From Pelagibacteraceae bacterium (GTDB lineage: Bacteria > Pseudomonadota > Alphaproteobacteria > Pelagibacterales > Pelagibacteraceae), in the NCBI GenBank assembly GCA_018402735.1, contig JAGYIF010000002.1:124001-188000 (forward strand): a stretch of DNA of 64,000 nt. Direction: 5' to 3'. Shown here piece after piece: positions 1,984 to 18,710 of the stretch. Position numbers and translations under genes: made by a program. The number at the start of each line of letters is the position of its first letter. The first letter of the stretch is position 1. The notes below the pieces were generated by a model. It was not told the DNA's origin and made no database searches. It saw nothing but the letters and a program-made list of their open reading frames with translations.

Positions 1984-2583
1984 TCACTCCATCGCCCTTT
2001 GAAATTCAGACGACTTTTCAATATACGCCGCCATCGTTCGCGCTGCCGTCCCGCTTTCCACGATCACGCTTCTGAAACGATCTTCCCAGAGCGTTCCGGT
2101 GCGGTTGTGCGTGCGGTTGAACCAGCGGGTGAAACGCTGCAACAGGGTCTTCATGAAATCGCTCAGATCATGCATCCGCGGCGTGAAACGACCGTGGATC
2201 TCCGCAACACGCTCCGGATTCCCTCCCGCAACACCGCCCTCCGTCCGCGCCGCAAGCAGCTCATCGGCAACGGATTTCACGAAAATCTCCCCATAAAACA
2301 CACCCAGCCGCTTGAACAATTCCGCGTCGCTCAAGTCTCCCTGCGGCATCGGCGGAACCTCAAGGAGGATGTGGAAATGATTCGACATCACGCAGTAAGA
2401 AAGCACCCGGCAACCACTGAAATTCTCCACCATCCGCAGGAACATCCGGAACTTCCCCCGCTCCTCATCCCCAAAAACGAACCGCCTGTCCACCACTCGC
2501 GAAACACAGTGATAAATTGACGGCTTTTCCTCCGATTCCGCCCATGGCGAAATCCAGCGCTTGCTGACTTTCTTGCCTGACAT
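1984..2583 (-). pseudogene. REP-associated tyrosine transposase (RAYT, Y1_Tnp), C-terminally truncated
   Basis: 199 residues. The HUH metal-binding pair is present as NHFHILLEVP (His69, His71), and the segment LLQRFTRWFN followed by a GTLWEDRF motif is typical of TnpA_REP/RAYT proteins. Two points suggest it is inactive. The usual tyrosine in the 'QRYTRYFN' helix is phenylalanine here. The protein also stops right after AAYIEKS, where relatives continue with an NPVRAG-type segment and about 50-100 more residues. RAYTs move or maintain short palindromic repeats. It lies between the DUF4143 ATPase and a truncated secreted protein, so the locus has been rearranged. Family call is confident; loss of function is inferred. 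Confidence 0.75.
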
Positions 2584-3141: not shown

Positions 3142-3535
3142 GATTTTCGAGGGGTAGTTGATTGACTCAATGATGGAGGAGTTGGATGAATCAGTGAGTA
3201 TCCAACGACAAAAACCAAATGCAGCCTGTTGTGCAAATAAACTCTCAAATACAACTGGTATTGCTTTGATCACGTTTCCCGGATCACCGATCCAGGACGT
3301 CCGTATCGCATTGAAACTGCGCCACCCCCATTGTCCTACTGCCGTCTATCCTCGATGGCATGGAGGCTGAAAATATCTCCGCTAGCGCGAATGGCACAGT
3401 TTTAAGGACCTATTACGCGATTTCTGATAAAAGGACCATCCTTATTGCGATATGATTGGTGCGGAACTTTGTCGTTTCTTGCATTGCCGGGCACCGGCAG
3501 GCAATTCGTATGATTGATTGGTTAAGATAGATACT
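3142..3535. other. Divergent intergenic region between a secreted protein and the GH99-like gene
   Basis: 394 bases without a supported gene, so the promoters of both divergent neighbours probably lie here. At about 3402-3454 an imperfect direct repeat is visible: AAGGACC..ATTACGCGAT followed by AAGGACC..ATTGCGAT, spaced like a tandem operator upstream of the GH99-like gene. No binding protein can be assigned; the GntR/LacI-type gene at 5089 is an obvious candidate. Confidence 0.35.
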
Positions 3536-4903
3536 ATGAAGAGGATTCGAGCTTCCACCTTGGCAGGGGTGGTCTGTGGGCTGCTACTGGTAGGAGGTGC
3601 GATCGGTTGGATCGTGCCGAACCGGATCGATGTCATGGACGGCAGGCGCGTGCCGATTGGCTCGATAGAGCCTACACGTGTCGATGCATCGTCCCTCACA
3701 GGTAAAGTGATGTGCGGCTACCAAGGTTGGTTCGGCACTCCCGGTGATGGTGAAGGACGGGGATGGAGGCACTACCACAATCCGGCGACGCGGCAGTTTA
3801 CCCCTGGTCATGCCAGCATCGAGTTCTGGCCGGACTTGAGTGAGCTTGGACAGCACGAGCGTTTCGATACCGAATTCCGCCACGCTGACGGTCGAGTTGC
3901 GCAGGTGTTCAGTTCGGCGGTCCGTGACACCGTGGTAAGGCACTTCCAATGGATGAAGGAATATGGGATTGACGGCGTATTCGTGCAGCGATTCGCCACC
4001 GAGGTGACCAAGCAGGGAACCTCGGGCAAGCCGATGGCCGAAACGGTGAACCGGATCCTCGATAACTGCCGTGCTGGAGCTGAACAGCACGACCGCACCT
4101 ATGCCGTAATGTATGATCTCTCCGGCATGAAGTCGGAGCGAATGAGCCTGGTCAAGGATGACTGGCGGCATCTAGTCAAGGAAATGGGAATCCTCGAAGA
4201 TCCAGCTTACCAGCACCACAGCGGCCGACCGGTGGTGTCCGTGTGGGGGGTCGGTTTTGGTGAGGATCGGAAGTACGGGGCGAAGGAGGTGCTTGAGCTG
4301 ATTGATTTCTTTAAAAACGACCCCGAGTATGGTGGGCTCACCGTGATATTAGGCACCTCGACCCACTGGCGGGATGGGATTCGTGATGCCGGGGCGTTCG
4401 CTACATGGGAGCCGGTTTATCGGATAGCCGACATCATCTCGCCGTGGACGGTGGGACGTTACCGCGATGCCAGGCAGGCCCGCGCCTATGCAAACACCCG
4501 CGCCAGGGAAGATCGGGCCTGGTGCATCGCCAACGGTAAGGAATTCATGCCGGTTGTGTTCCCGGGCTTTGGCTGGTCGAACCTGAAGAATTTGACCGCC
4601 GAAGATCCCGATGTCGCCATCGATCGGGATGGCGGTCGGTTTCTCTGGGCGCAATATGACGCGCACATTCGCGATGGCGGCGTGAAAATGATCTATCAGG
4701 CGATGTTCGACGAACTCGACGAGGGCACTCACATCTTCAAGTCCACCAACGACCCGCCGATCGGCGAAAGCAAGTTTCAGACCTATGCCGGACTGCCTTC
4801 CGATTACTACCTGTGGTTGGTCGGTGAAGCCTCCCGTCGGCTAAGGCAAGAGATCGTTTCAACCCCTGACCTCCCGGTGCGGAGTTCAAGTCCAGGTCAA
4901 TAA
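3536..4903 (+). CDS. Glycoside hydrolase family 99/71-like protein
   Basis: About 455 residues. A membrane anchor or signal sequence (TLAGVVCGLLLVGGAIGW) is followed by the family hallmark VMCGYQGWFGTPGDG. Further segments (FQWMKEYGIDGVFVQRF, YDLSGM, FDELDEGTHIFK) resemble GH99-like and xylosidase/arabinosidase-annotated TIM-barrel proteins. GH99 enzymes act on alpha-mannosides, but this subgroup is uncharacterised, so substrate is open. The ATG at 3536 gives a standard signal start; a TTG 18 bases upstream is possible. It stands at the head of a carbohydrate region and is convergent with the regulator gene at 5089. Confidence 0.75.
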   Translation: MKRIRASTLAGVVCGLLLVGGAIGWIVPNRIDVMDGRRVPIGSIEPTRVDASSLTGKVMCGYQGWFGTPGDGEGRGWRHYHNPATRQFTPGHASIEFWPDLSELGQHERFDTEFRHADGRVAQVFSSAVRDTVVRHFQWMKEYGIDGVFVQRFATEVTKQGTSGKPMAETVNRILDNCRAGAEQHDRTYAVMYDLSGMKSERMSLVKDDWRHLVKEMGILEDPAYQHHSGRPVVSVWGVGFGEDRKYGAKEVLELIDFFKNDPEYGGLTVILGTSTHWRDGIRDAGAFATWEPVYRIADIISPWTVGRYRDARQARAYANTRAREDRAWCIANGKEFMPVVFPGFGWSNLKNLTAEDPDVAIDRDGGRFLWAQYDAHIRDGGVKMIYQAMFDELDEGTHIFKSTNDPPIGESKFQTYAGLPSDYYLWLVGEASRRLRQEIVSTPDLPVRSSSPGQ

Positions 4904-5088: not shown

Positions 5089-6156
5089 TCACCTGCCCTT
5101 CGGCACAGGCCCGATTGTCCCGCCTTCGACGAACTTGGACTTGATGAGCGTCTGCCGAAGGTCCTGCTTCCCGTGTGCAATGTTCTCGGCCCAGCGGGTC
5201 ACCCGGCGAATCACGGGGAGATAATCCCAGCGGATATGGGTGACGGGGGGCTCTTGCCACGCGAAGGTCGGGTCCCAATCGTCACACACGAGAGAGACAT
5301 CCCGCGGAGCGATGATGCCCCGTTGCGCCAGATGGTCTCGTGCGGCTGCGAACAGCCTCGGTTCCATGATGATCAGGGCGGTTGGAGGCGTATACCGAAA
5401 GAGAGTGTCCAGTCCGCGGTGAAAATCCTCGGAACCGCTTCCCCAATCGGGTAGGTTGTAGGATCCGATCTCGATTCCCTGGGCCTGCAGTTCATCGAGA
5501 AAGGCTTGTTCGCCAAGGGCCGGACGAGGCTTCCGGCGTTCCTCCTGCACCAGCATCACGATGCGCCGATGGCCAAGGGAAACCAGTCGCCGCACCGCCT
5601 CCTGAATCGCCGGAACCTTGCGGGGACACGCGGCCGCAATCGGAAGATCACTGAAGCGGCCGAACAGAGCCAAAGCTGGGACTGACTGCTCGGCAAACCA
5701 ACTCAGGACTTCGCGGGATCCTGCGGCAACGATCCAGGCATCGGCCGATGTGCGCTTGACCAAGGCCGCGACTCTATCGGGGCGCATCTTCAGATCCCAC
5801 AGGGATTCCCGCGCGAAATGGAATCGAAACCCTGTCTCCTCAAGCTGTTGGCTGAGTGCGGACATAAAGGGCATCTCACGGCTGGACTTGTCATATGGCA
5901 GGCATCTCAGAAGCAAGGGGCGGGGTTCGAGTTGCTCGGCAGACACCTGCACCCGCCGCCGCTTTCCCGCACCCTGCCCTACCAGCAGCCCTTCCTTCTC
6001 CAGCTGCCGCAGGGCCGTGTCCACCGTCTCCCGGTTCACTCCCAATTCTCTTTCCAAGCGCAGGACGCCCGGCATGAAGTCCCTCCATCGCCCCTTCAAC
6101 AATTCGGAACGGAGGTGCTCCGCGACCTGTTCCGAGCGTGTTGGAAAATGAAGCAT
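5089..6156 (-). CDS. GntR-type helix-turn-helix regulator with LacI-like sugar-sensing domain
   Basis: 355 residues. Residues 1-70 form a winged helix of the GntR type (SEQVAEHLRSELLKGRWRDF, then LERELGVNRETVDTALRQLE). From about residue 80 to the end it matches a periplasmic-binding-protein-like LacI/GalR effector domain (GHRRIVMLVQEERR, PTALIIMEPRLFAAA, DVSLVCDDWDPTFAW). This architecture is common in Verrucomicrobia and Planctomycetes for sugar-responsive control. Its place between the GH99-like gene and the PEP-CTERM and lyase genes suggests it controls this locus. A palindrome lies 21 bases before its start codon. Ligand unknown. Confidence 0.85.
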   Translation of the reverse strand: MLHFPTRSEQVAEHLRSELLKGRWRDFMPGVLRLERELGVNRETVDTALRQLEKEGLLVGQGAGKRRRVQVSAEQLEPRPLLLRCLPYDKSSREMPFMSALSQQLEETGFRFHFARESLWDLKMRPDRVAALVKRTSADAWIVAAGSREVLSWFAEQSVPALALFGRFSDLPIAAACPRKVPAIQEAVRRLVSLGHRRIVMLVQEERRKPRPALGEQAFLDELQAQGIEIGSYNLPDWGSGSEDFHRGLDTLFRYTPPTALIIMEPRLFAAARDHLAQRGIIAPRDVSLVCDDWDPTFAWQEPPVTHIRWDYLPVIRRVTRWAENIAHGKQDLRQTLIKSKFVEGGTIGPVPKGR

Positions 6157-6177
6157 TGCGGAAATAACCTACGGGTT

Positions 6178-6187
6178 TATCATGATA
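6178..6187. promoter_or_regulatory. Palindrome upstream of the GntR/LacI-type regulator
   Basis: TATCATGATA is a perfect 10-base palindrome in the 142-base gap between the regulator gene and the divergent PEP-CTERM gene. Position fits an autoregulatory operator. It is short enough to occur by chance, so confidence is low. Confidence 0.3.
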
Positions 6188-6298
6188 GTTGTCGAGAGCA
6201 ATCTTTCTGGACGAAGTTGTAGTGAGAGGGTTCCTTGAGCTCGTCAGTTACGCAACCGTCGAGCCTGACTTGCAATAAAACCTCAAATCAAACCTCAA

Positions 6299-7096
6299 AT
6301 GAAACATCGAAAAACAAGCCTCGTCGTTGCCGCAACCAGCCTTCTGGTCCTCGGCAGTTCAATTTGTCCGTGCCACTCCGCGACGATTATCCATGAAACT
6401 TTCGGCGGCACTGGCTCGGCGCTGAGCGGAACAACCGCTGAAATCTTCAACACTGCCATTGTGACCGCAGGTGGTTCAGCGACGTGGAACGCCAATAGCA
6501 ATTTTCTCGACAATGGCACTGTCAACAATGGGGCGGATGCCGGGGCATCTCTTAGTCTCGGTAGCTATGTCAACGATGCGAAGGGCACGGCTAACGGTAA
6601 GTTTGAACTCACCTATACAGTTTCGCAAACGTCTGGTGCTTGGATTTCTCTTGGATTCTCAGCAACAGCAGCACCGACGGCTCATTTCACGTCGGACGCG
6701 GGGGCTGGACTGGCGACCATCATCTATCGCGGTGTGGACACTGCCTTCGGCAATTTGGGCGAGTTGGATATGTATGCTGGCCCTAGGACTACGGATGCCG
6801 TAGATGGCCCGGATGGCAATACCGGGGCAAGGACGCTTACCGCTACCATCGATTTTACTCCCGCCGCCGGCTACGACGGAACGACTGACTTTGGAACCGT
6901 GACATGGTCCGATAGCGTCTTGGGGGACCTGGGTAGCGCAGCCCTGCCCAATTCAAGCTTCGGCTCCATCCTGATCTCAACGTCGAAAACCTCTGGGACG
7001 ATCAGTAATCTCACGCTAACACAGATCCCCGAGCCCTCAAGCATCATGCTTTCCGGATTGGCGCTAGCCGGGCTGGCCTTGCGTCGTCGTCGCTGA
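6299..7096 (+). CDS. PEP-CTERM sorting-domain secreted protein
   Basis: 265 residues. Signal peptide MKHRKTSLVVAATSLLVLGS up to about residue 26, then a Gly/Thr/Asn-rich beta-structured middle typical of surface lectin-like or adhesin-like proteins. It ends with a textbook PEP-CTERM signal: IPEPSSIMLSGLALAGLALR plus further arginines (Pro-Glu-Pro, hydrophobic helix, basic tail). This signal is processed by an exosortase and is frequent in Verrucomicrobia. The start codon lies in a tandem duplication of AAACCTCAAAT (6278-6301). The signal peptide is nearly duplicated in the next gene. Specific function unknown. Confidence 0.85.
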   Translation: MKHRKTSLVVAATSLLVLGSSICPCHSATIIHETFGGTGSALSGTTAEIFNTAIVTAGGSATWNANSNFLDNGTVNNGADAGASLSLGSYVNDAKGTANGKFELTYTVSQTSGAWISLGFSATAAPTAHFTSDAGAGLATIIYRGVDTAFGNLGELDMYAGPRTTDAVDGPDGNTGARTLTATIDFTPAAGYDGTTDFGTVTWSDSVLGDLGSAALPNSSFGSILISTSKTSGTISNLTLTQIPEPSSIMLSGLALAGLALRRRR

Positions 7097-7155: not shown

Positions 7156-7206
7156 TTCTGTCTATGAAGTCTGCCATTGGAAGCCCCCCTGCTCATACCA
7201 CACGGA

Positions 7207-7662
7207 ATGGAACATCAAAAAACAAGCCTAGTCGTTGCCGCGATCAGCCTTTTGGCCCTCGGCAGTTTGATCAGCCCTAGCCACGCCGAGATCCTCGTCA
7301 AATACGAGTTCACCGGAGCGAGCGCGGCCCAGACTTCCGGAAGTGCCACGGGGACAAACGTGACATTCGGTGCCTTCACGGGCGGAGGCGCTGCTGGAAC
7401 CATCGGTTTCTCGGGTAGCACCGATGGTGACCAGTTGGGCGGGGTGACCTACGCCTCCGGCACTGCGCCGGGGCCCACCGATACACCCGACACCACACTC
7501 ACAACGCAGTGGTCCACCGACTTGGAGTTCTGGGAAGACTTCACCTCGCCGCAGAGCGAGACTCCGACTGGTGATGGCCTCGTGAATTGGATCTTTGTTT
7601 TAGAGGGACCGCCGGAGCATTTATTTATCAGACTGCAGGCAACCCCGGAAACAACAGAATAA
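7207..7662 (+). CDS. Secreted protein with duplicated signal peptide, probably a truncated PEP-CTERM relative
   Basis: 151 residues from the ATG at 7207. The signal peptide (MEHQKTSLVVAAISLLALGS) is almost the same as that of the gene at 6299, in both protein and DNA. The mature part starts EILVKYEFTG, a common opening of verrucomicrobial PEP-CTERM proteins, but there is no PEP-CTERM anchor and the C-terminus is unusual. Around 7587-7680 another frame reads GAFIYQTAGNPGNNRIR, which resembles the normal continuation of such proteins. A frameshift or internal deletion near 7580 is therefore likely. It may be a pseudogene; it lies 29 bases upstream of the lyase fusion gene. Confidence 0.55.
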   Translation: MEHQKTSLVVAAISLLALGSLISPSHAEILVKYEFTGASAAQTSGSATGTNVTFGAFTGGGAAGTIGFSGSTDGDQLGGVTYASGTAPGPTDTPDTTLTTQWSTDLEFWEDFTSPQSETPTGDGLVNWIFVLEGPPEHLFIRLQATPETTE

Positions 7663-7691: not shown

Positions 7692-10600
7692 ATGGCTTCC
7701 TCTCTACGATCACTTCTTTCCCTCGTCCTAGTAACCCTCTGCACCCACGCTGATGAGGTCGCCAAGGACGTGGTGGTTTATGGTGCCACACCCGGCGGCA
7801 TTACCGCCGCGATCTCCGCCTCGCGCGAAGGTCATTCCGTCGTTCTACTGGAGCAGACCCGGCACGTCGGCGGACTGAGCACCAGCGGGCTCAATCGCGA
7901 CGAGGCAGAGCACATGGATACGCGCACCTTCGGTGGTTTGAGTGAGAAGTTCCTGCTCGCCGCCCACCTGCGCAGCCGTGGCTGGACTGAACTCAGGCAT
8001 CCCGACAAGCGCCATCCGCGCACCTGGCAGTCAAAGGTCGCCGAGAAGGTCTTTCTGGAGATGCTTGAGGAGGCCGGGGTCGAAGTGCGCTTTGAGCAAC
8101 TCATCCAATCGGTAGAAAAGCAGGAGGCTTCGATTGTGTCCCTCACCGTGCGCGGTGGCACCACTTACAAGGCCAAGGTCTTCATCGATGCGACCTACGA
8201 AGGTGACCTGATGGCCAAGGCGGGCGTGTCCTACGCGCTGGGTCGCGAATCCCGCGATCAATACAGGGAGTCACTGGGTGGCGTGCGCTATCTCGACGAC
8301 CCTATTCCAGTGTCACCCTACGACAAGGACGGCAAGCTGCTGCCCGGCATCATGCCCGGCAAGCCGCCCGCCGAGTTTGGCGCCAGCCCGCATCCCATCT
8401 GCTACAACATCCGCCTCAACCTGACCACCGATCCGGAGAATAAGGTCGAGATTGAGAAGCCGGAGAACTACGACCCAAAACAGTATGAACTGCTGATTGG
8501 CAGCTTTCAGGCGGGCAAGCTGGGGAAGGTGGGCGATGTGCTTGCGCTCTATGGCATGCCGGGTGACAAACGCGAGTGCAACAACAAGCAGGCGGCCATC
8601 GTGTCCTTGAGCATGCCCGGCGAGCAAACAGCATGGGCGGAGGCAAGCTTCGAGCAGCGCGAGGCCATCCATCAGAAGTATCGCGACTACACCCACGGGC
8701 TATTGTGGTTCATGAAAACAGATCCGCGCATGCCGGAGAAGGTACGCAAGGAAATGGCCAGCTATGGCTTCTGCAAGGACGAGTGGACAGACAACGACCA
8801 CTGGCCCTGGTATCTCTACATCCGCGCCGCCAGGCGCATGATCGGTCCGGTGGTGCTCACCCAGCACGATGTCACAGAGACCCGCGACAAGAAGGACGTC
8901 ATCCACATCGGTTCGCACTACATCGATTCGCACCACGTCGCCCGCTACGCCTACGACGAGAACAGCTTCATCAACGAGGGCCGCATCTGGCAGAAGGGCA
9001 TGAACTTCGACATCCCCTACCGCGCCATCACCCCGAAGCAGGAGGAATGTGACAACCTTCTGGTGCCGGTCTGCGTGTCCGCCAGCGCGGTCGCTTTCTA
9101 CGCCATCCGGCTGGAACCGACATGGATGCACTTGGGTGAGGCCAGCGGCATGGCGGCCTCTCTTGCTATCAAGAACCAGCAGGCGGTGCAGACCATCGAC
9201 GTGCCCACGCTACAGGGTATGATCCAGAAGCAAGAGATTCCGTTGGACGTCCCCACCGATGAGGACGTTCAAGAAATGGTGAAACAGTTCAAGACACGTC
9301 TGAAAACCTCCATCATCGAGGAGAACCAGATTATTTATGATGCGTCTGAATCAGTCAAAACGATGCAGCCGGACGGCAGTTGGCCCGGTATCGATTATGG
9401 CTCGAAGGCTATGCACAATTGGCCTGGCAATGAACATCTGTTTCGCATGGTAGATATGTCCGTCGCCTATGTGGCAGATCCAAAGCACCCGCTATACAAG
9501 AATGATGACCTGTTGGAGAAAATCCTGAGGAGTATTGACTTCTGGTTTGCCAGGAATCCGACCGAAGGCCACCCGAACTGGTGGTATCGATCCATGCAAC
9601 CTCAAATGTCCCTCAGTAAAGTCTGTCTGTTGATGGACCCTTATCTTGGCAAAGAGCGACGAGCCAAAATGGTGGGTATACTGCAATCCGATGTTCATAG
9701 TAGGCATACGGGAGCCAATCTGGTCTGGTTTGCGGAGAACACCTTTTTCAAGGGGATTTTCCTCGAGGATTACGCCATGATGCAACATGCCGTGGCGGCG
9801 CTGAACAGAGCTTATACCCCGGCATACAAGACCCTGCATGAGGTCGCCCTTGAGGGCTTGCAGCCGGATTCCAGTTTCACTCAGCATGGCATGCATTTCT
9901 ACAACAATATGTATGGGCTGGGCTATTTCATGTCCTCCTGCCGCTGGCTCTACTTTCTTCATGACTCGCCCTTGGCATTCAGCAATGCGACGCGAAACCT
10001 GATCAATGACATGGCACTCAATGGAAATCGTTGGATGCTGCGCTATCATCAGAATGACCCGAGTTCTCGAGGTAGAGCCATAGCGACCCGCGTTCCGGAG
10101 AGGGGTAGCGCATCGCCTCTCTTGCACCCGCTCGAACTATTGAAGAAGGCTAATGACGACCCTGAAACGAAATCTCAGATTCAGCATTTTATCGATCATA
10201 TCAATGGGAAACGACCAACCCCGGGCGTGGTGGGTAACCGCTATTTCTGGCGGGTTGACTATATGTCGCACATCAGGGAGAAGTTTTTTGCGTCTGTCAG
10301 AATGGTCTCAAAGGGAGTCAAAGGTTCTGAAGAGACGATCGGGAACAATGTGCTGGGCGGGTTAACGAGCTACGGGCTTACCTTCATCATGCGCACAGGT
10401 AGGGAATACGACCATATCTTTCCTGTTTGGGACTGGGCCCTGCTGCCGGGAGTCTCGGCGCCCCGGGAGACGTTTCGCCCAAATCATCTATCACACATAG
10501 ACTCCACGTTTGTCGGAGGCGTCACCGATGGGACCTATGGTTGTGCCGCCATGGACTTCGCGAAGAAGATACCCAAAATCAACAAGAGTTTTAGCGGAAA

Positions 10601-11360
10601 GAAAGCGTATTTCTTCTTCGATGACGAAATCGTTGCACTGGGCACAGCGTTATCAAGTGATTCCAACAATGAGTTCAATACGACACTGAATCAGTGCTTA
10701 CTCACAGATCAGGTATACATCGACGGCCAGCCAAAGGGTCTGGAGGCATCACCGGTTGCAAAACAATACGAAGGGCGTTGGGTGAACCATGACAGTATTG
10801 GATATGTTTTCCCGGAAAAACAGACATTCATGCTAAAGAACGGAGAACAAAGCGGGTCCTGGAAGCGAATATCCACGAATCTCTCAGACGCTCCTGTAAA
10901 GCACAGTGTTTTCACCCTTTATCTGGAACACGGGATCAAGCCCAAGAATGGCAGCTATGAATACATTGTTGTTCCCGGCATCACCAGGGAGGAAACAGCG
11001 GCTTACTCTGAGAACATGCCTGTAAGGATATTGAAGAACAGTCACCACATACAAGCAGTGGAACATGTGCCGCTAAAGACTGCCGGGGTCGTATTTCACA
11101 AGCCGGGACAGATCAGCCTGACGTCCGGCCTGACAGTAAGTGCGGATCATCAATGTTTTGTCTTAATCAGCGAGAACCCCGACGGGAGTTTCGGGGTCTC
11201 TGCCGCAAATCCGGAGACCCCCGGTCTAAAACTGACGATCACGCTGAAGAACGCAGGCAACCAGAAGAGTGTGGTCTACCGATTCGAAGAGGGCATTGCA
11301 TTCCTGGGAAGAAGCATCACGAAACGAGTGGTCTTATCCCAACTGGAAGCGGACAACTGA
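7692..11360 (+). CDS. Secreted fusion of a FAD-dependent oxidoreductase and a family 8 polysaccharide lyase
   Basis: 1222 residues from the ATG at 7692, chosen because a signal peptide follows (LLSLVLVTLCTHA). Residues about 22-505 are a FAD-dependent oxidoreductase: VVVYGATPGGITAAISASRE dinucleotide fold, then HVGGLSTSG and a late LGEASGMAASLAI segment. Residues about 520-1222 are a PL8 (hyaluronate/chondroitin/xanthan lyase) module: NWWYR near 629, the Asn of TGANLVW near 675, the His and Tyr of FTQHGMHFYNN near 730, an Arg pair in SRGRAIATR near 792, then a C-terminal beta-sandwich. Both halves keep family catalytic features. GC falls sharply at the boundary near 9300. Substrate is probably an uronic-acid polysaccharide, fitting the nearby sulfatase. 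The FAD module's role is unknown. Confidence 0.85.
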   Translation: MASSLRSLLSLVLVTLCTHADEVAKDVVVYGATPGGITAAISASREGHSVVLLEQTRHVGGLSTSGLNRDEAEHMDTRTFGGLSEKFLLAAHLRSRGWTELRHPDKRHPRTWQSKVAEKVFLEMLEEAGVEVRFEQLIQSVEKQEASIVSLTVRGGTTYKAKVFIDATYEGDLMAKAGVSYALGRESRDQYRESLGGVRYLDDPIPVSPYDKDGKLLPGIMPGKPPAEFGASPHPICYNIRLNLTTDPENKVEIEKPENYDPKQYELLIGSFQAGKLGKVGDVLALYGMPGDKRECNNKQAAIVSLSMPGEQTAWAEASFEQREAIHQKYRDYTHGLLWFMKTDPRMPEKVRKEMASYGFCKDEWTDNDHWPWYLYIRAARRMIGPVVLTQHDVTETRDKKDVIHIGSHYIDSHHVARYAYDENSFINEGRIWQKGMNFDIPYRAITPKQEECDNLLVPVCVSASAVAFYAIRLEPTWMHLGEASGMAASLAIKNQQAVQTIDVPTLQGMIQKQEIPLDVPTDEDVQEMVKQFKTRLKTSIIEENQIIYDASESVKTMQPDGSWPGIDYGSKAMHNWPGNEHLFRMVDMSVAYVADPKHPLYKNDDLLEKILRSIDFWFARNPTEGHPNWWYRSMQPQMSLSKVCLLMDPYLGKERRAKMVGILQSDVHSRHTGANLVWFAENTFFKGIFLEDYAMMQHAVAALNRAYTPAYKTLHEVALEGLQPDSSFTQHGMHFYNNMYGLGYFMSSCRWLYFLHDSPLAFSNATRNLINDMALNGNRWMLRYHQNDPSSRGRAIATRVPERGSASPLLHPLELLKKANDDPETKSQIQHFIDHINGKRPTPGVVGNRYFWRVDYMSHIREKFFASVRMVSKGVKGSEETIGNNVLGGLTSYGLTFIMRTGREYDHIFPVWDWALLPGVSAPRETFRPNHLSHIDSTFVGGVTDGTYGCAAMDFAKKIPKINKSFSGKKAYFFFDDEIVALGTALSSDSNNEFNTTLNQCLLTDQVYIDGQPKGLEASPVAKQYEGRWVNHDSIGYVFPEKQTFMLKNGEQSGSWKRISTNLSDAPVKHSVFTLYLEHGIKPKNGSYEYIVVPGITREETAAYSENMPVRILKNSHHIQAVEHVPLKTAGVVFHKPGQISLTSGLTVSADHQCFVLISENPDGSFGVSAANPETPGLKLTITLKNAGNQKSVVYRFEEGIAFLGRSITKRVVLSQLEADN

Positions 11361-11408: not shown

Positions 11409-12818
11409 ATGAACCAACAAAAAGCCGCTTGCAATCCAATCCTTCTGCCACTCGTGCTACTACTTTCGGCCCCTTGGGCTTTCGCCCAGAACCCGAAGTC
11501 GGAGAATTTCCTTCCCGCGCGGGAACTCTACGCGCCCGCCCACTTCGGCAATGCCTATGAGGTGATGAGCGCCGACGAGATGAGCGCGTATTTGGCCGAG
11601 GTGAAATGGATGGGGTTTAACTCCTATTCGGATTGGTTCACGGCGACCGACGTGAATGATCCCTATTCGCCGCAGCATGCCGACGAAAAGAGCAGGAGCC
11701 GGTTCGAGAAAAAGAAGGCCATCTACCTAGCAGCCCAGGAGGCGGGATTGGCATTGAACGTGATCATTTGCCCTAATCATGTCTATGTGAACCAGTTGGC
11801 GGACAAGGAAATCGCTGCCACGAAGGGGCGTCTGATCCAGGGGCAGTTGATTTGTCCGAGCACCCCGCGCGGCAGGGAAATCATCCTCGCGAACCACCGG
11901 AACTGGTTCGCGGATACCGCCAAGGCGGGGATCACCTTCAACACGGTGACCGCGTTTGCCTACGACTATGGCGGCTGCGCCTGTGATCAATGCAGCCCCT
12001 GGATCCTGACCTCAGCGCAACTGACCAAGGAGATTCATGAGATCGCGAAGGAGTATCATCCGCAGATCGAGCCCTGGTATTGTTCGTGGTGGTGGAGCGG
12101 CGAGGACCACCAGTTGTTCAACGAATGGGCGGCCTCGGAAGCGCCCGGTTGGCTCAAGGGAATGACCATGCACATCGAATACAACCAGACCCGGCCAAAG
12201 AATGTCGCCGTCCCGGAGGGTTGCCGCAAACTCGCCTTCGTGCATATCGGCTATGGCGAAAGGGGCGGCTATGCCACCTACGGGAAGATGGGGCCGGTCT
12301 TCGGGCCGAAGCGCATTCCCGCCACCATCGCCGAGTTGAAAAATCTGGGCTTCGACGGGTTTCAGGCCTATTCCGAAGGTCGCTTTGATGATGTTAACAA
12401 GATGGTTCTGGCCGGCCTCGCGAGCGGAACGCAGCCGAATGCCGACACGGCACTGGAGGCCTATGCAAGGCGCTATCTGAGGGCCACTGAGACTGACGCC
12501 ACCCGCTGGACTGAATTACTCAAGCAATGCGTCGATCCGGTCAGCCCAACCGAATCGCGAAAGGAGCTCGACAGCTTGGCGAAGAAGGTTCCAGGCAACT
12601 GGCGGATCGAGCAATGGCGCTCAAGGCTTTTTCTCGTCGAACATGAGAGAGCGAAGAATGCGGAGCGCTTTCTCGATGCTCAGGATAAGCTCTACCGGGA
12701 TGTCTACGGCCTGGGCAAGGTCGACCATGTCCTGAACCCGGCGGTTGGACGGCCGGGCTGGATCAGAAGAACCAACGGCAAACCCGACAGCCAGAAGGAA
12801 ATGCTTCCGGAACAGTGA
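11409..12818 (+). CDS. Secreted TIM-barrel-like protein, possible glycoside hydrolase of unknown family
   Basis: 469 residues with a signal peptide (NPILLPLVLLLSAPWAFAQN). The chain alternates strands and helices as in TIM-barrel glycosidases (VKWMGFNSYSDWF, LALNVIICPNHVYVN, FNTVTAFAYDYGGCACDQC, IEPWYCSWWWSGEDH, GFDGFQAYSEGRFDD). Acidic residues in FAYDYGG and AYSEGRFD are candidates for catalysis. A CxCxxC cluster near residue 195 is notable and could bind a metal or form disulfides. It starts 48 bases after the lyase fusion on the same strand, so joint expression is likely. No characterised family is recognised with certainty. Confidence 0.6.
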   Translation: MNQQKAACNPILLPLVLLLSAPWAFAQNPKSENFLPARELYAPAHFGNAYEVMSADEMSAYLAEVKWMGFNSYSDWFTATDVNDPYSPQHADEKSRSRFEKKKAIYLAAQEAGLALNVIICPNHVYVNQLADKEIAATKGRLIQGQLICPSTPRGREIILANHRNWFADTAKAGITFNTVTAFAYDYGGCACDQCSPWILTSAQLTKEIHEIAKEYHPQIEPWYCSWWWSGEDHQLFNEWAASEAPGWLKGMTMHIEYNQTRPKNVAVPEGCRKLAFVHIGYGERGGYATYGKMGPVFGPKRIPATIAELKNLGFDGFQAYSEGRFDDVNKMVLAGLASGTQPNADTALEAYARRYLRATETDATRWTELLKQCVDPVSPTESRKELDSLAKKVPGNWRIEQWRSRLFLVEHERAKNAERFLDAQDKLYRDVYGLGKVDHVLNPAVGRPGWIRRTNGKPDSQKEMLPEQ

Positions 12819-12867: not shown

Positions 12868-14598
12868 CTACTTCCAGATGGATTTGAGCGCATGAACTTC
12901 AAGGCGAATCAGCTGGGCTGAACCGCCGTTGGCGAAGGCTTTTACTGCGGAGACATCTCCCAGATGTTTGCGACTTGTTGTGATGTAAACCGCACCGTCA
13001 TTGCCACAGATCTCCATCATCGGCCGGTCCAGGATCACCTGGATGGAGACTTTGCCGTCAACCGGCTTCATGGGCGCACCATTGAGTGTTCCGGCTTCGA
13101 CATCGTAAGTGATTCGATTGCCGCCAATGTCCACCCCGACGGAGCTGGCCTTAACCAGAGCAAACTCCGCTCTGACCTCAAAGAGTTCACCGGAGACATC
13201 GAGGCTCGTGCCGGAATCCTCGGCAAGGTCGGCGGACTGGGTGGCATGCGTTTTCTTGCGGAGCTTGGCAATCTCCCTGACTGGCTTCGCATACATGCGG
13301 ATTCCCTCCGGGGTCTGCCGCAAGGTCAGACGGTGCGGCAACGTGAAAGTCTGGGTGAACGGCATCCCAGGCATTTTGATTTTGGCCCATCCGATCTGGA
13401 TGGCGCGTTCATCCGGCATATTGCTGAAGGTCTGCGCGGCGAAATAGGCGCCGTAATGAACCCGATGTTTGCCCTCGTGCTCCGGGGTAAACATTTTGCC
13501 GTCGAAACTGCCGACCGCGTATTGCGCATCCGCCCCATAGACCACCCATCGTTTCTCACGCGGACCATCGGCTGTCTCGGAGGAGACATAAGGATCAACA
13601 GGCAACTCAAGGATGTCCGGGCATTCCTTGTAGCCCGGCAGGTGGCCCTGCAAGGTCCAGTCCTTCAGATTGATCGATGTGAAGAAGGCGATGTTCGCAC
13701 CATACTTGCGCTCGATATTGTAAGTGACCATCACCCAATGCCCTCCCAGCTCTTTTGCCGCGGCACTGATCGGTTGATCATCCACGTCATACTCATACCA
13801 AATGACTCTCGGATCGTTGCCGCGCTGCTTGAGCACGGGATTATTTTCGTAGTAGGTGAAAGTCCTGCCATGATCGTTCGAGTAGGCCAGAGCTTCTCCG
13901 ACGCCTGCTCCGAAGTCGGAGAACACGGCGACGATGGGCGGCTTGCCACCGGTCTGGAAACCAGCCGTGTTCTGATGATCGACCACCGCACTACCGGAAA
14001 AGCATTGCCCCTTCGCCTGAATGAACGGGCTCAGAGCAATCGGCAACTCCTCCCAGTGAATCAGATCCTTACTGACGGCATGACCCCAGAACTTGTCAGC
14101 GTGGCGGAGAGCCGTCGGGCAATACTGGTAGTAGAGATGCCACTCACCTTCATAGTAAACGAGGCCGTTGACGTCGTTGTTCCAACCGGCCTTCTGACTG
14201 AAGCGAAGCTGGGGTCTCAAGGACTCGGAATACAAGTTGTCCTCTTCGGGAAGTTCGTCTGACTGCCGGATCAGCGCAAAGCTCTGCGCCGTAGCTCCTT
14301 CAGCGGAAATGACTGCGGGCTTTCCCTTGTGGGCCTCAATCGAAAAGTAAGCCCAGAAGTCCACCGATTCGGCATCCGGAGCGAGTTCCGCGTCGCAGCG
14401 AATCACCTTCTTGCCCGCCACCTCTAACTCCAAGGTGCATTCCACGGCCCCGTTTTGAATCGGTATAAGTAGATATTTCTTCCCGACGACCATTTGGTCG
14501 GTAAGCGTATCGACCTTCTCAACACTTTTCGGCGGCGGACCGCCAAAAGCCAATGATATGGAGATTGCGGAGATAAATAATAGAAGTGTGTTTTTCAT
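12868..14598 (-). CDS. Glycoside hydrolase family 32 protein (levanase/fructanase type)
   Basis: 576 residues with a signal peptide (MKNTLLLFISAISISLAFGG). After an N-terminal domain of about 125 residues comes the GH32 five-bladed propeller. The nucleophile motif is WNNDVNG (Asp142; usually WMNDPNG), the RDP-type motif reads NDPR (Asp262), and the acid/base motif is YKECPD (Glu325). A C-terminal beta-sandwich follows. GH32 enzymes hydrolyse beta-fructosides such as levan, inulin or sucrose; the signal peptide points to an exported enzyme. It is convergent with the TIM-barrel gene and divergent from nothing in the carbohydrate cluster, so fructan is a second substrate type. Exact specificity is open because the NDPNG motif is altered. 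Confidence 0.85.
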   Translation of the reverse strand: MKNTLLLFISAISISLAFGGPPPKSVEKVDTLTDQMVVGKKYLLIPIQNGAVECTLELEVAGKKVIRCDAELAPDAESVDFWAYFSIEAHKGKPAVISAEGATAQSFALIRQSDELPEEDNLYSESLRPQLRFSQKAGWNNDVNGLVYYEGEWHLYYQYCPTALRHADKFWGHAVSKDLIHWEELPIALSPFIQAKGQCFSGSAVVDHQNTAGFQTGGKPPIVAVFSDFGAGVGEALAYSNDHGRTFTYYENNPVLKQRGNDPRVIWYEYDVDDQPISAAAKELGGHWVMVTYNIERKYGANIAFFTSINLKDWTLQGHLPGYKECPDILELPVDPYVSSETADGPREKRWVVYGADAQYAVGSFDGKMFTPEHEGKHRVHYGAYFAAQTFSNMPDERAIQIGWAKIKMPGMPFTQTFTLPHRLTLRQTPEGIRMYAKPVREIAKLRKKTHATQSADLAEDSGTSLDVSGELFEVRAEFALVKASSVGVDIGGNRITYDVEAGTLNGAPMKPVDGKVSIQVILDRPMMEICGNDGAVYITTSRKHLGDVSAVKAFANGGSAQLIRLEVHALKSIWK

Positions 14599-14825: not shown

Positions 14826-16211
14826 TCATCTCGCGAGCGTGAATCCCTTGGCGAGCAAGGCCGAGAGCCGGTGGCGGGTGTCTGCGTGGGCGGGGTCCTC
14901 GCCGAGGTTGTGGTATTCGCCCGGATCCTCGACGTGGTCGTAGAGCTCGATGCCCGCTTTCCCGCGTTCGCCCCATTCGGTGTAGCGCCAGCGCTCGGTC
15001 CGCACGCTGCGACCGACCGGGCCGCGGTTGACCTGGGTGTAGGCGGCCTCTTTTCCGGGTTGCGCGGGGTCTTCGAGGACGGGGCGCAGGCTCTGGCCGG
15101 AGAGTTTTTGGGGAGGGGTGAGGCCAGCGTAGTCGGCCAGCGTCGGGTAAAGGTCGACGAACTCGGTGATGGCTGCGGTGGGTTTGCCCATACCTTTCGC
15201 GCCGGGGATCCAGACGATCATCGGGGCGCGCGCGCCGAGTTCGTGGACGGTGACCTTGTTCCACCAGCCATGCTCGCCGAGATGATAACCGTGGTCGCCG
15301 ATCAGGATCACGATGGTGTTGTCCCACAACTTGTTCCGCTCCAGCGCAGCGAGAATGCGGCCTACCTGCGCGTCGGCGAAACTAACCCCGGCCTGATACG
15401 CGCGCTTGAACTCGCGGCGCTCGCGGTCGGTGAACGCGGCGAAGTCCGTTTGGTTCGGGATCGCGTGACGTAACTGAGGGCTGCGGTCGGCGGGTTCCTT
15501 CGCGAGTTTCACGGAATCCTCCGGGTAGAGGTCGAAGTAGCTCTTGGGCGCGAAAAAGGGATCGTGCGGCTTGTGGATGCCGAGGGCGAGGAAGAAGGGC
15601 TTGCCGTGGCGTTCATCGAGCACGCGCAGGGCTTCGGTGGTGTTGATGCCGTCGGGTTGGTCGGCGTCGGTGCCCTCGGCGGCGCGCCATTCACACCATT
15701 TGAGGCGGCCTTCCGTCAGGTTGCGGCCTTCGCCCTTGAGGCCGATCGCGGGGGCGGCGTTAAGGCTGTCGGAGAAGTGATCCCATGACTTGGGATCACG
15801 GAATTTCGCATCCTCGCCCTTCGCGTCCTCGCCGAGGTGAAATACCTTGCCGATGCCCGCGGTGAAGTATCCGTTGCGGCGGAAGAGTTCCGGCAAGGAG
15901 ATGCGCTCCGGCATGGTTTTGCGGAATGGCACGTCGTTGGTGACGATCCCGGTTTCGTCCGGCCGCAAGCCCGAGAGAAAAGAAGCACGGCTCGGGTTGC
16001 AGACGGGATACTGGACGTAAGCGCGGCGGAAGAGCATGCCCTTTGCCGCGAGGCGGTCGATGTTAGGCGATTTCACGTCTTCCGCTCCGTAGCAGCCAAG
16101 CTCTGGGCGGAGGTCGTCGAGGATGATGAACACGACGTTCGGTTTTTCCGCCGGAGCGGCCATGGTGTGGGAAAGGAGGGCGAACCAACCCACCGTCAAA
16201 GATACGGCCAT
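14826..16211 (-). CDS. Secreted sulfatase, iduronate-2-sulfatase-like
   Basis: 461 residues from the ATG at 16211, chosen because it begins a signal peptide (MAVSLTVGWFALLSHTMAA); longer in-frame starts add non-family residues. Metal ligands are in FIILDDLRPELGCYG (Asp32, Asp33). Cys71 in VCNPSRASFLSG is the residue converted to formylglycine, in the C-x-P-S-R form. IGDHGYHLGEHGWWNK and KPFFLALGIHKPHDPF are typical of the iduronate-2-sulfatase/choline-sulfatase branch. It likely removes sulfate esters from a polysaccharide outside the cytoplasm and would cooperate with the PL8 module at 7692. The anaerobic or FGE maturase is not in the window. Confidence 0.9.
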   Translation of the reverse strand: MAVSLTVGWFALLSHTMAAPAEKPNVVFIILDDLRPELGCYGAEDVKSPNIDRLAAKGMLFRRAYVQYPVCNPSRASFLSGLRPDETGIVTNDVPFRKTMPERISLPELFRRNGYFTAGIGKVFHLGEDAKGEDAKFRDPKSWDHFSDSLNAAPAIGLKGEGRNLTEGRLKWCEWRAAEGTDADQPDGINTTEALRVLDERHGKPFFLALGIHKPHDPFFAPKSYFDLYPEDSVKLAKEPADRSPQLRHAIPNQTDFAAFTDRERREFKRAYQAGVSFADAQVGRILAALERNKLWDNTIVILIGDHGYHLGEHGWWNKVTVHELGARAPMIVWIPGAKGMGKPTAAITEFVDLYPTLADYAGLTPPQKLSGQSLRPVLEDPAQPGKEAAYTQVNRGPVGRSVRTERWRYTEWGERGKAGIELYDHVEDPGEYHNLGEDPAHADTRHRLSALLAKGFTLAR

Positions 16212-16335
16212 GCGCAGGGAGCGATTCAGGTATGCGGCGGCTGCTTGGCAGAACGGCGGGAAGAGGACACGAGCGTTGATGGCTTCCATGGCGGCTATCT
16301 TACCGTCCGGGAAAGCCATGAACACATTTTTCGGG

Positions 16336-16449
16336 TCAATCCGCGTTCACGCCATAGGCGAAGCGATAGAACGATTCCTTCTCGCCCTCGTTGACGGGGA
16401 CGGTCATTTCCAGTTCACCGCCAGCGGAGGCGTTGATGGCGGTGGATGT
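16336..16449 (-). pseudogene. C-terminal remnant of a secreted-type protein cut by the comM-tail junction
   Basis: On the minus strand 37 codons read TSTAINASAGGELEMTVPVN and continue to FYRFAYGVNAD and a stop. The phrase resembles the end of verrucomicrobial beta-rich extracellular proteins. The frame ends exactly where the plus-strand comM tail begins (16448), so the rest of the gene has been removed by recombination. It lies just upstream of the sulfatase on the same strand and may once have been its operon partner. Identity unknown. Confidence 0.5.
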
Positions 16450-16873
16450 CCAAAACTACCGCCAGAAAATCAGCGGGCCGCTGCTGAACCGCATCGTCAT
16501 CCACGTCGAAGTCCCGCTTGTCGATTTCCTCGAGCTCACCTCGGACGCCATCACCGGCGAGTCATCCGCCGTCATTCGCGAACGCGTCGCCGCCGCGCGC
16601 GGCATCCAAGTGCAGCGTTTCAAATCCGCCAAGCTCACCACCAACGCCGCCATGGGCGCAAAGCAGGTGCGCGAGTCCTGCAAGCTCGACGCCGAATCCC
16701 GCGGCTACCTCGAACACGCCATGGAGCCCATGAATTTCTCCGCCCGCGCCCACGACCGCATCCTCAAGGTAGCCCGCACCCTCGCCGACCTTGCCGGGAA
16801 GGAAAACATCGGCGGCAACGAGGTGCTGGAGGCGATCCAGTTCCGCTCGCTGGACAGGCGGTTGTTCGAGTGA
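16448..16873 (+). pseudogene. Displaced 3' end of a comM/yifB-type gene
   Basis: 141 codons reading VQNYRQKISGPLLNRIVIHV through to SLDRRLFE. Family members have 'ISGPLLDRIDLHVEVP' about 140 residues before their end, so this is the C-terminal quarter of ComM without the AAA+ core. The first matching codon follows directly on an unrelated minus-strand remnant, giving a sharp join at 16446-16450. The tail is a diverged copy of the one at 2-172 (49 of 56 residues in the shared part). It has no plausible start codon of its own and is probably silent. Confidence 0.85.
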
Positions 16874-18457: not shown

Positions 18458-18483
18458 CCTAAATACCGCAGTTGGGTATCAAT

Positions 18484-18684
18484 TTTTCACCGCAGAGTCG
18501 CAGAGGTCGCAAAGGAACGCAGAGCCTTGCATGTGGGAAGATAGAAAATTTGGAAAAACGATGGAACTGCATGGTTCACCCAATGGGTGAAATGGAATTG
18601 CCGTGAAAAATGCCCTGCACTATCCCGAAACACAAACTCTTCTCAGCGTTCCCTCTGCGACCTCTGCGCCTTTGCGGTGAAAAT
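18484..18684. mobile_element. MITE-like element with long terminal inverted repeats
   Basis: The left end (18484-18525, TTTTCACCGCAGAGTCGCAG and on) and the right end (18642-18684) are inverted copies of each other over about 42 bases with few mismatches. Between them are roughly 115 bases without coding potential. Arms built of repeated CGCAGAGG units are widespread in intergenic spaces of several environmental phyla. The element has no transposase and would need one in trans. It sits between a decayed gene and the 3' end of a FAD protein gene. Confidence 0.65.
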
Positions 18685-18710
18685 CTTCGTTTGAACTGCG
18701 GATTTTAGGT

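Follow-up and report, generated by a model that had tools for sequence, protein, structure and literature searches.

A probable secreted fusion of a PF12831 FAD oxidoreductase and a PL8 polysaccharide lyase in Luteolibacter-like Akkermansiaceae DNA

A single gene in the 64,000-nucleotide stretch of contig analysed here (the window) joins an FAD oxidoreductase to a polysaccharide lyase of family PL8. We read it, at a probability of roughly 0.6, as a real, rare, secreted bimodular enzyme from a sugar-degrading locus of a Luteolibacter-like member of the Akkermansiaceae, whose two halves would cooperate. Taken singly, the halves have the domain content of ordinary members of known families; their combination did not turn up in the open-access papers that we searched. 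The gene is one open frame of 1222 amino acids with no internal stop in translation, and the host assembly contains it in one copy, likewise stop-free. Pfam places four domains along this frame in order, every match lying above the curated cut-offs (Table 1). The first-pass annotation had described a single exported chain with an intact FAD and an intact PL8 module, a description that the frame, the Pfam matches and the catalytic residues all support.

Table 1. Features of the fusion gene and its surroundings, in window coordinates
Feature	Position	Strand	Basis and remarks
Distant GH99 endo-mannosidase relative	3518..4903	+	Below Pfam cut-off; weak PDB match; matched in G062 and G063
GntR-type regulator with sugar-binding Peripla_BP_3 domain	about 5089..6156	-	Pfam; divergent from the locus
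PEP-CTERM protein	6299..7096	+	Domain search
Fusion gene	7692..11360	+	ATG at 7692; frame open from TTG 7587
Likely Sec signal peptide	7692..7751	+	Residues about 1-20, MASSLRSLLSLVLVTLCTHA; read from translation
FAD_oxidored (PF12831)	7767..9218	+	Residues 26-509, E 5e-97
Fusion point	9252..9266	+	Residues about 521-525; end of FAD module and start of mature PL8, no linker
Lyase_8_N alpha-helical domain	9330..10148	+	Residues 547-819, E 2e-24; N676, H732, Y741, R795
Lyase_8 super-sandwich domain	10236..10982	+	Residues 849-1097, E 2e-69; E880
Lyase_8_C beta-sandwich domain	11025..11219	+	Residues 1112-1176, E 5e-11
469 aa protein, no known family	11409..12818	+	About 50 bases downstream of the fusion gene; hydrophobic leader
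GH32-like glycoside hydrolase	12868..14598	-	Pfam
Sulfatase (Sulfatase + SGSH_C)	14826..16325	-	Pfam; 68% identical homologue in G063

The PF12831 match is close to full-length, spanning profile positions 1-414 of 416, and the FAD half carries the dinucleotide-binding motif YGATPGGITAA; VYGATPGGITAA is also found in the fusion protein. Relatives of this half with a readable start (L003 and L004) likewise open with hydrophobic leaders. Matches to the FAD half in the PDB mostly cover the FAD-binding part, and an AlphaFold2 model of this half, built from four input sequences, reached a pLDDT of 42, below usable confidence. Membership of the second half in PL8 is indicated by Lyase_8_N, Lyase_8 and Lyase_8_C, all present and in the correct order. 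The best solved relatives are those of the chondroitinase AC of Pedobacter/Flavobacterium heparinum (1cb8, 1hm2), which match residues 551-1176 with an E value of about 1e-80. We aligned N175, H225, Y234 and R288 of this enzyme, which we take from established enzyme knowledge to be its catalytic residues, with N676, H732, Y741 and R795 of the window protein, and these four are identical in 38 of 38 rows of a PL8 alignment that includes the window protein twice. In the same alignment, the column of E880 holds Glu in 34 rows and Asp in four. The earlier claim of Asn, His, Tyr and Arg in the expected motifs is thus upheld at the aligned catalytic positions, with the Glu in addition, while a second Arg (R292 in chondroitinase AC; here T799 or R800) was dropped as a catalytic match because its column is not conserved among relatives.

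Chondroitinase AC is a stand-alone protein with its own signal peptide, unlike the lyase half of the window protein, and its substrate cannot be transferred to the window lyase because the two sequences are distant. Against the NCBIfam model for chondroitinase AC (NF043001) the window protein scores 329 bits, below the curated cut-off of 1000, which marks it as related but not an equivalog. Aly16-1, a broad-specificity Streptomyces PL8 enzyme with less than 30% identity to characterised ones, is reported to act on glycosaminoglycans, xanthan and alginate, and no oxidoreductase module is mentioned for it, unlike the window protein (PMC11596371). Because the NF043001 score is so far below its cut-off and because of the breadth of Aly16-1, we name no single substrate for the window lyase.

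The genes around the fusion include a sulfatase, GH32-like and GH99-like enzymes and a sugar-responsive regulator, a neighbourhood that would suit the degradation of a complex polysaccharide, which may be sulfated. The GntR-type regulator has a 72% identical homologue in G061 (matched over 5102-6199), located on the contig that carries the FAD orthologue, while the GH99-like gene and the sulfatase (matched over 14905-16143) have matches at neighbouring positions of G063. Also in this region, the first part of a plus-strand frame at 7177-7662 resembles a 249 aa protein encoded near the homologous regulator in G061, and the frame appears truncated immediately before the fusion gene. An IS200-like (Y1) transposase (1984-2583, minus strand), to which several related genomes have homologous stretches, precedes the fusion gene by about 5 kb. 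Further downstream, a Mg-chelatase (ChlI) type C-terminal piece (16391-16873, plus strand) is probably a remnant, with similar stretches present in multiple copies in related genomes, and two short stretches at 18468-18526 and 18630-18688 match many places of G185 on both strands, in the manner of dispersed palindromic repeats.

Other fusions were sought in every one of the family's 260 genomes and in samples of wider groups (387 genomes of the order, 388 of the phylum, 48 of another order and 198 of another class), overlapping sets that hold more than 780 distinct genomes in total. When 72 PL8 frames were screened with the FAD profile, only that of the window was fused (0 of the 71 others), some distant PL8 frames being incomplete or truncated where a stretch ended and L195-L198 lying outside this screen; L195 and L196, at no more than 942 aa, have space for just some 300 aa ahead of the lyase. 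None of the 18 FAD relatives in the 260 family genomes is visibly fused to a lyase, the longest frame among them being 699 aa, with at least two cut by contig ends. In the plasmid collection, FAD or PL8 matches occurred separately and none covered 80% of the query, and the viral contigs gave no relatives. The FAD-PL8 fusion is therefore limited to one known case among everything searched. The domain search for both modules in one protein that the first-pass annotation had proposed hence finds them in the window frame, while a second homologue appeared neither in the genomes nor on plasmids or viral contigs; we do not count the missing fused homologue against the gene, because the join sits at exact module boundaries. 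The same annotation knew of no described enzyme that joins an oxidoreductase to a PL8 lyase, and we found none joining an FAD oxidoreductase to PL8 among the open-access papers that we searched either. Its suggestion that fusions of this kind lie behind the name 'xanthan lyase' given to some FAD proteins found no support and was dropped: none of the 71 other PL8 frames is visibly a fusion, stand-alone relatives carried by plasmids bear the annotation 'FAD-dependent oxidoreductase', and a search of the open-access literature yielded nothing for a fusion origin of the name.

Stand-alone counterparts of both halves frame this single case. The PF12831 proteins of the Akkermansiaceae stop at the FAD domain, where the window protein continues into the lyase, and the stand-alone PL8 protein L091 has no FAD match, unlike the fusion. 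A similar arrangement occurs in the distant genome G684, in which a PF12831 gene is followed by a PL8 gene (L149) in the same order and on the same strand as in the window, about 42 bases apart; here, however, the two are separate genes, the FAD protein is a distant member with a C-terminal extension, and the PL8 protein has its own hydrophobic leader. FAD genes stood beside PL8 genes in 3 of 40 PL8 neighbourhoods and in 1 of 20 control stretches, which were convenience picks from the same genomes, so that there is no enrichment, and a functional association by neighbourhood was dropped. Such figures, like the single instance and the lack of a linker or third module to tie the halves, are what a genuine but incidental fusion might leave, one in which the halves work separately on unrelated substrates and share only export or dosage. 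We regard this as unlikely, though it deserves serious weight, since the FAD half and the PL8 catalytic residues have been kept intact among other sugar-degrading genes and an unfused FAD-PL8 pair exists in G684.

The contig itself calls for caution. The host assembly (G000) comprises 1.32 Mb in 27 contigs, and among 60 of its relatives the sole match was one weak FAD-type hit. At about 38,147 in the window, within truncated genes, GC content drops from about 0.62 to 0.30, and the contig runs at about 0.60 over the 162 kb before this join and at about 0.31 over the 86 kb read after it. To the left of the join, an AsnS-type synthetase is 78% identical to its counterpart in the Luteolibacter-like G061 and has no orthologue in the host's relatives; to the right, SecA is 96% identical to that of a genome of the host's own genus. 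Because of the GC switch and the opposite affinities of synthetase and SecA, we conclude from the sequence that the contig is a chimera of Akkermansiaceae DNA and the low-GC DNA of the host lineage, joined at about 38,147, and findings that span or compare the two sides are affected by it. The fusion gene belongs to the Akkermansiaceae part and sits some 27 kb away from the join, with Akkermansiaceae-like genes flanking it on both sides. A second SecA-like frame (G000:C25:2900-5455), about 50% identical to the SecA of the window, may be a paralogue or further contamination.

Because the contig carries this chimeric join, the fusion point itself had to be tested for another, a test that it passes. 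Those FAD orthologues whose 3′ end is complete (L002, L075, L076, L077) are all stand-alone and 65-85% identical to the window protein, and their termini correspond to window residues about 519-523, while the orthologues L007 and L078 are cut by contig ends. The Luteolibacter sp. protein (L002, JAURCU010000007) shares 85% identity over residues 12-521 and the same C-terminal end, finishing in GMPLEVPDKVEK and a stop where the window protein reads EIPLDVPTDED, and at the DNA level identity to L002 is 83% up to 9253, immediately before the L002 stop. On the other side, window residues DEDVQEMVKQFKTRLKTSII align with the first mature-chain helix of stand-alone PL8 lyases, directly past their signal peptides, and the lyase half, without a signal peptide of its own, continues in frame with the FAD half. 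The two halves thus meet no more than about five residues from the natural end of either module, so that a whole FAD protein is joined, in frame, to a whole mature lyase. GC content drops exactly at this point, from 0.604 to 0.507, and a search within the 162-kb segment found no repeat of 14 or more bases at the join.

These details bear on the possibility that the assembly wrongly linked, at about 9260, a stand-alone FAD gene to a PL8 gene of another place or organism. The clear chimeric join at about 38,147 on the same contig, the GC shift coinciding with the fusion point, and the lack of a second fused homologue in the genomes searched would all suit such an artefact. Boundaries this exact, in frame and in the right orientation, are nevertheless hardly to be expected by chance, which argues that the join is genuine; by our rough estimate, a random break would give such a join in fewer than 1 in 10,000 cases, and no repeat of that length lies at the join. 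Moreover, because Akkermansiaceae-like genes flank both sides, an artefact would need two joins, or one within a related group. Given the module boundaries and these flanks, we consider an assembly chimera at the fusion point quite improbable.

The two halves appear to differ in history. The PL8 half, at a GC content of 0.505, falls in the lowest 3% of long frames in the 162-kb segment, where the 0.604 of the FAD half is ordinary. The nearest relatives found for the PL8 half reach 36% identity, stand-alone lyases of the Verrucomicrobiota-related genomes G830, G829 and G579 matching it over the full length of PL8 at 35-36%, and PL8 relatives from the Akkermansiaceae are mostly 30-33% identical. 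Because its GC content is low and its relatives are distant (up to 36%), the lyase half was probably acquired from elsewhere and then fused, which is the simplest account. For the FAD half, dN/dS is about 0.11 against L002, 0 of the 119 columns invariant in 15 relatives have changed, and three lineage-specific changes are counted in the window protein versus 13 in L002. These comparisons indicate that the FAD half is under purifying selection and not decaying, although much of the divergence may predate the fusion. The least credible alternative is activity in one half alone, with either the FAD half reduced to a structural or binding role or the lyase half a degenerating acquired fragment. 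For the PL8 half, the low GC content and the distance of its relatives do suggest recent acquisition, and the selection evidence concerns the FAD half alone, with no close PL8 homologue found; but the FAD half keeps its motif and every column that is invariant in its relatives, and the PL8 half keeps each catalytic residue and domain in a stop-free frame.

For the secreted bimodular enzyme that we favour, we infer the activities, their order, their substrate and the cooperation of the halves as follows. A native exported PF12831 FAD oxidoreductase gene would have lost its stop codon and been joined, in frame and with no linker between, to a PL8 lyase that was probably acquired and that kept its mature part but lost its own signal peptide. 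The signal peptide of the FAD gene would export the whole product, so that both enzymes travel as one chain. PL8 lyases cleave beside uronic acid via β-elimination, and the PL8 half is very likely a lyase for an acidic polysaccharide. It would cleave a uronate-containing chain by this route, with the Asn and its neighbours holding the carboxylate and the Tyr, together with the His and Arg, carrying out proton transfer, and would leave a 4,5-unsaturated sugar. The FAD half is predicted to bind FAD and would most likely act on the same substrate, oxidising or reducing either one of its sugar hydroxyls or a cleavage product, a role on a shared substrate or product being the most likely one because of the fusion, the shared export and the retained residues. 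No described activity was found for close relatives of this half. A tighter coupling, in which oxidation of a polymer residue by the FAD half would let the PL8 half cleave otherwise unusable sites, or in which the FAD half would instead oxidise the freshly cut end, is a speculative idea to which we give little credence.

If true, such coupling would constitute an oxidative route of acidic-polysaccharide breakdown that we have not seen described; if the halves do not cooperate, the gene would be another case of a sugar-degrading locus with shuffled domains. The genomes of the family commonly carry PF12831 oxidoreductases, with up to dozens of candidate places in one genome, and we found no role in polysaccharide breakdown assigned to them in the open-access papers that we searched. 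The fusion of one of them to a lyase of known chemistry hints at the kind of substrate on which PF12831 enzymes may act, and allows this to be examined within one protein.
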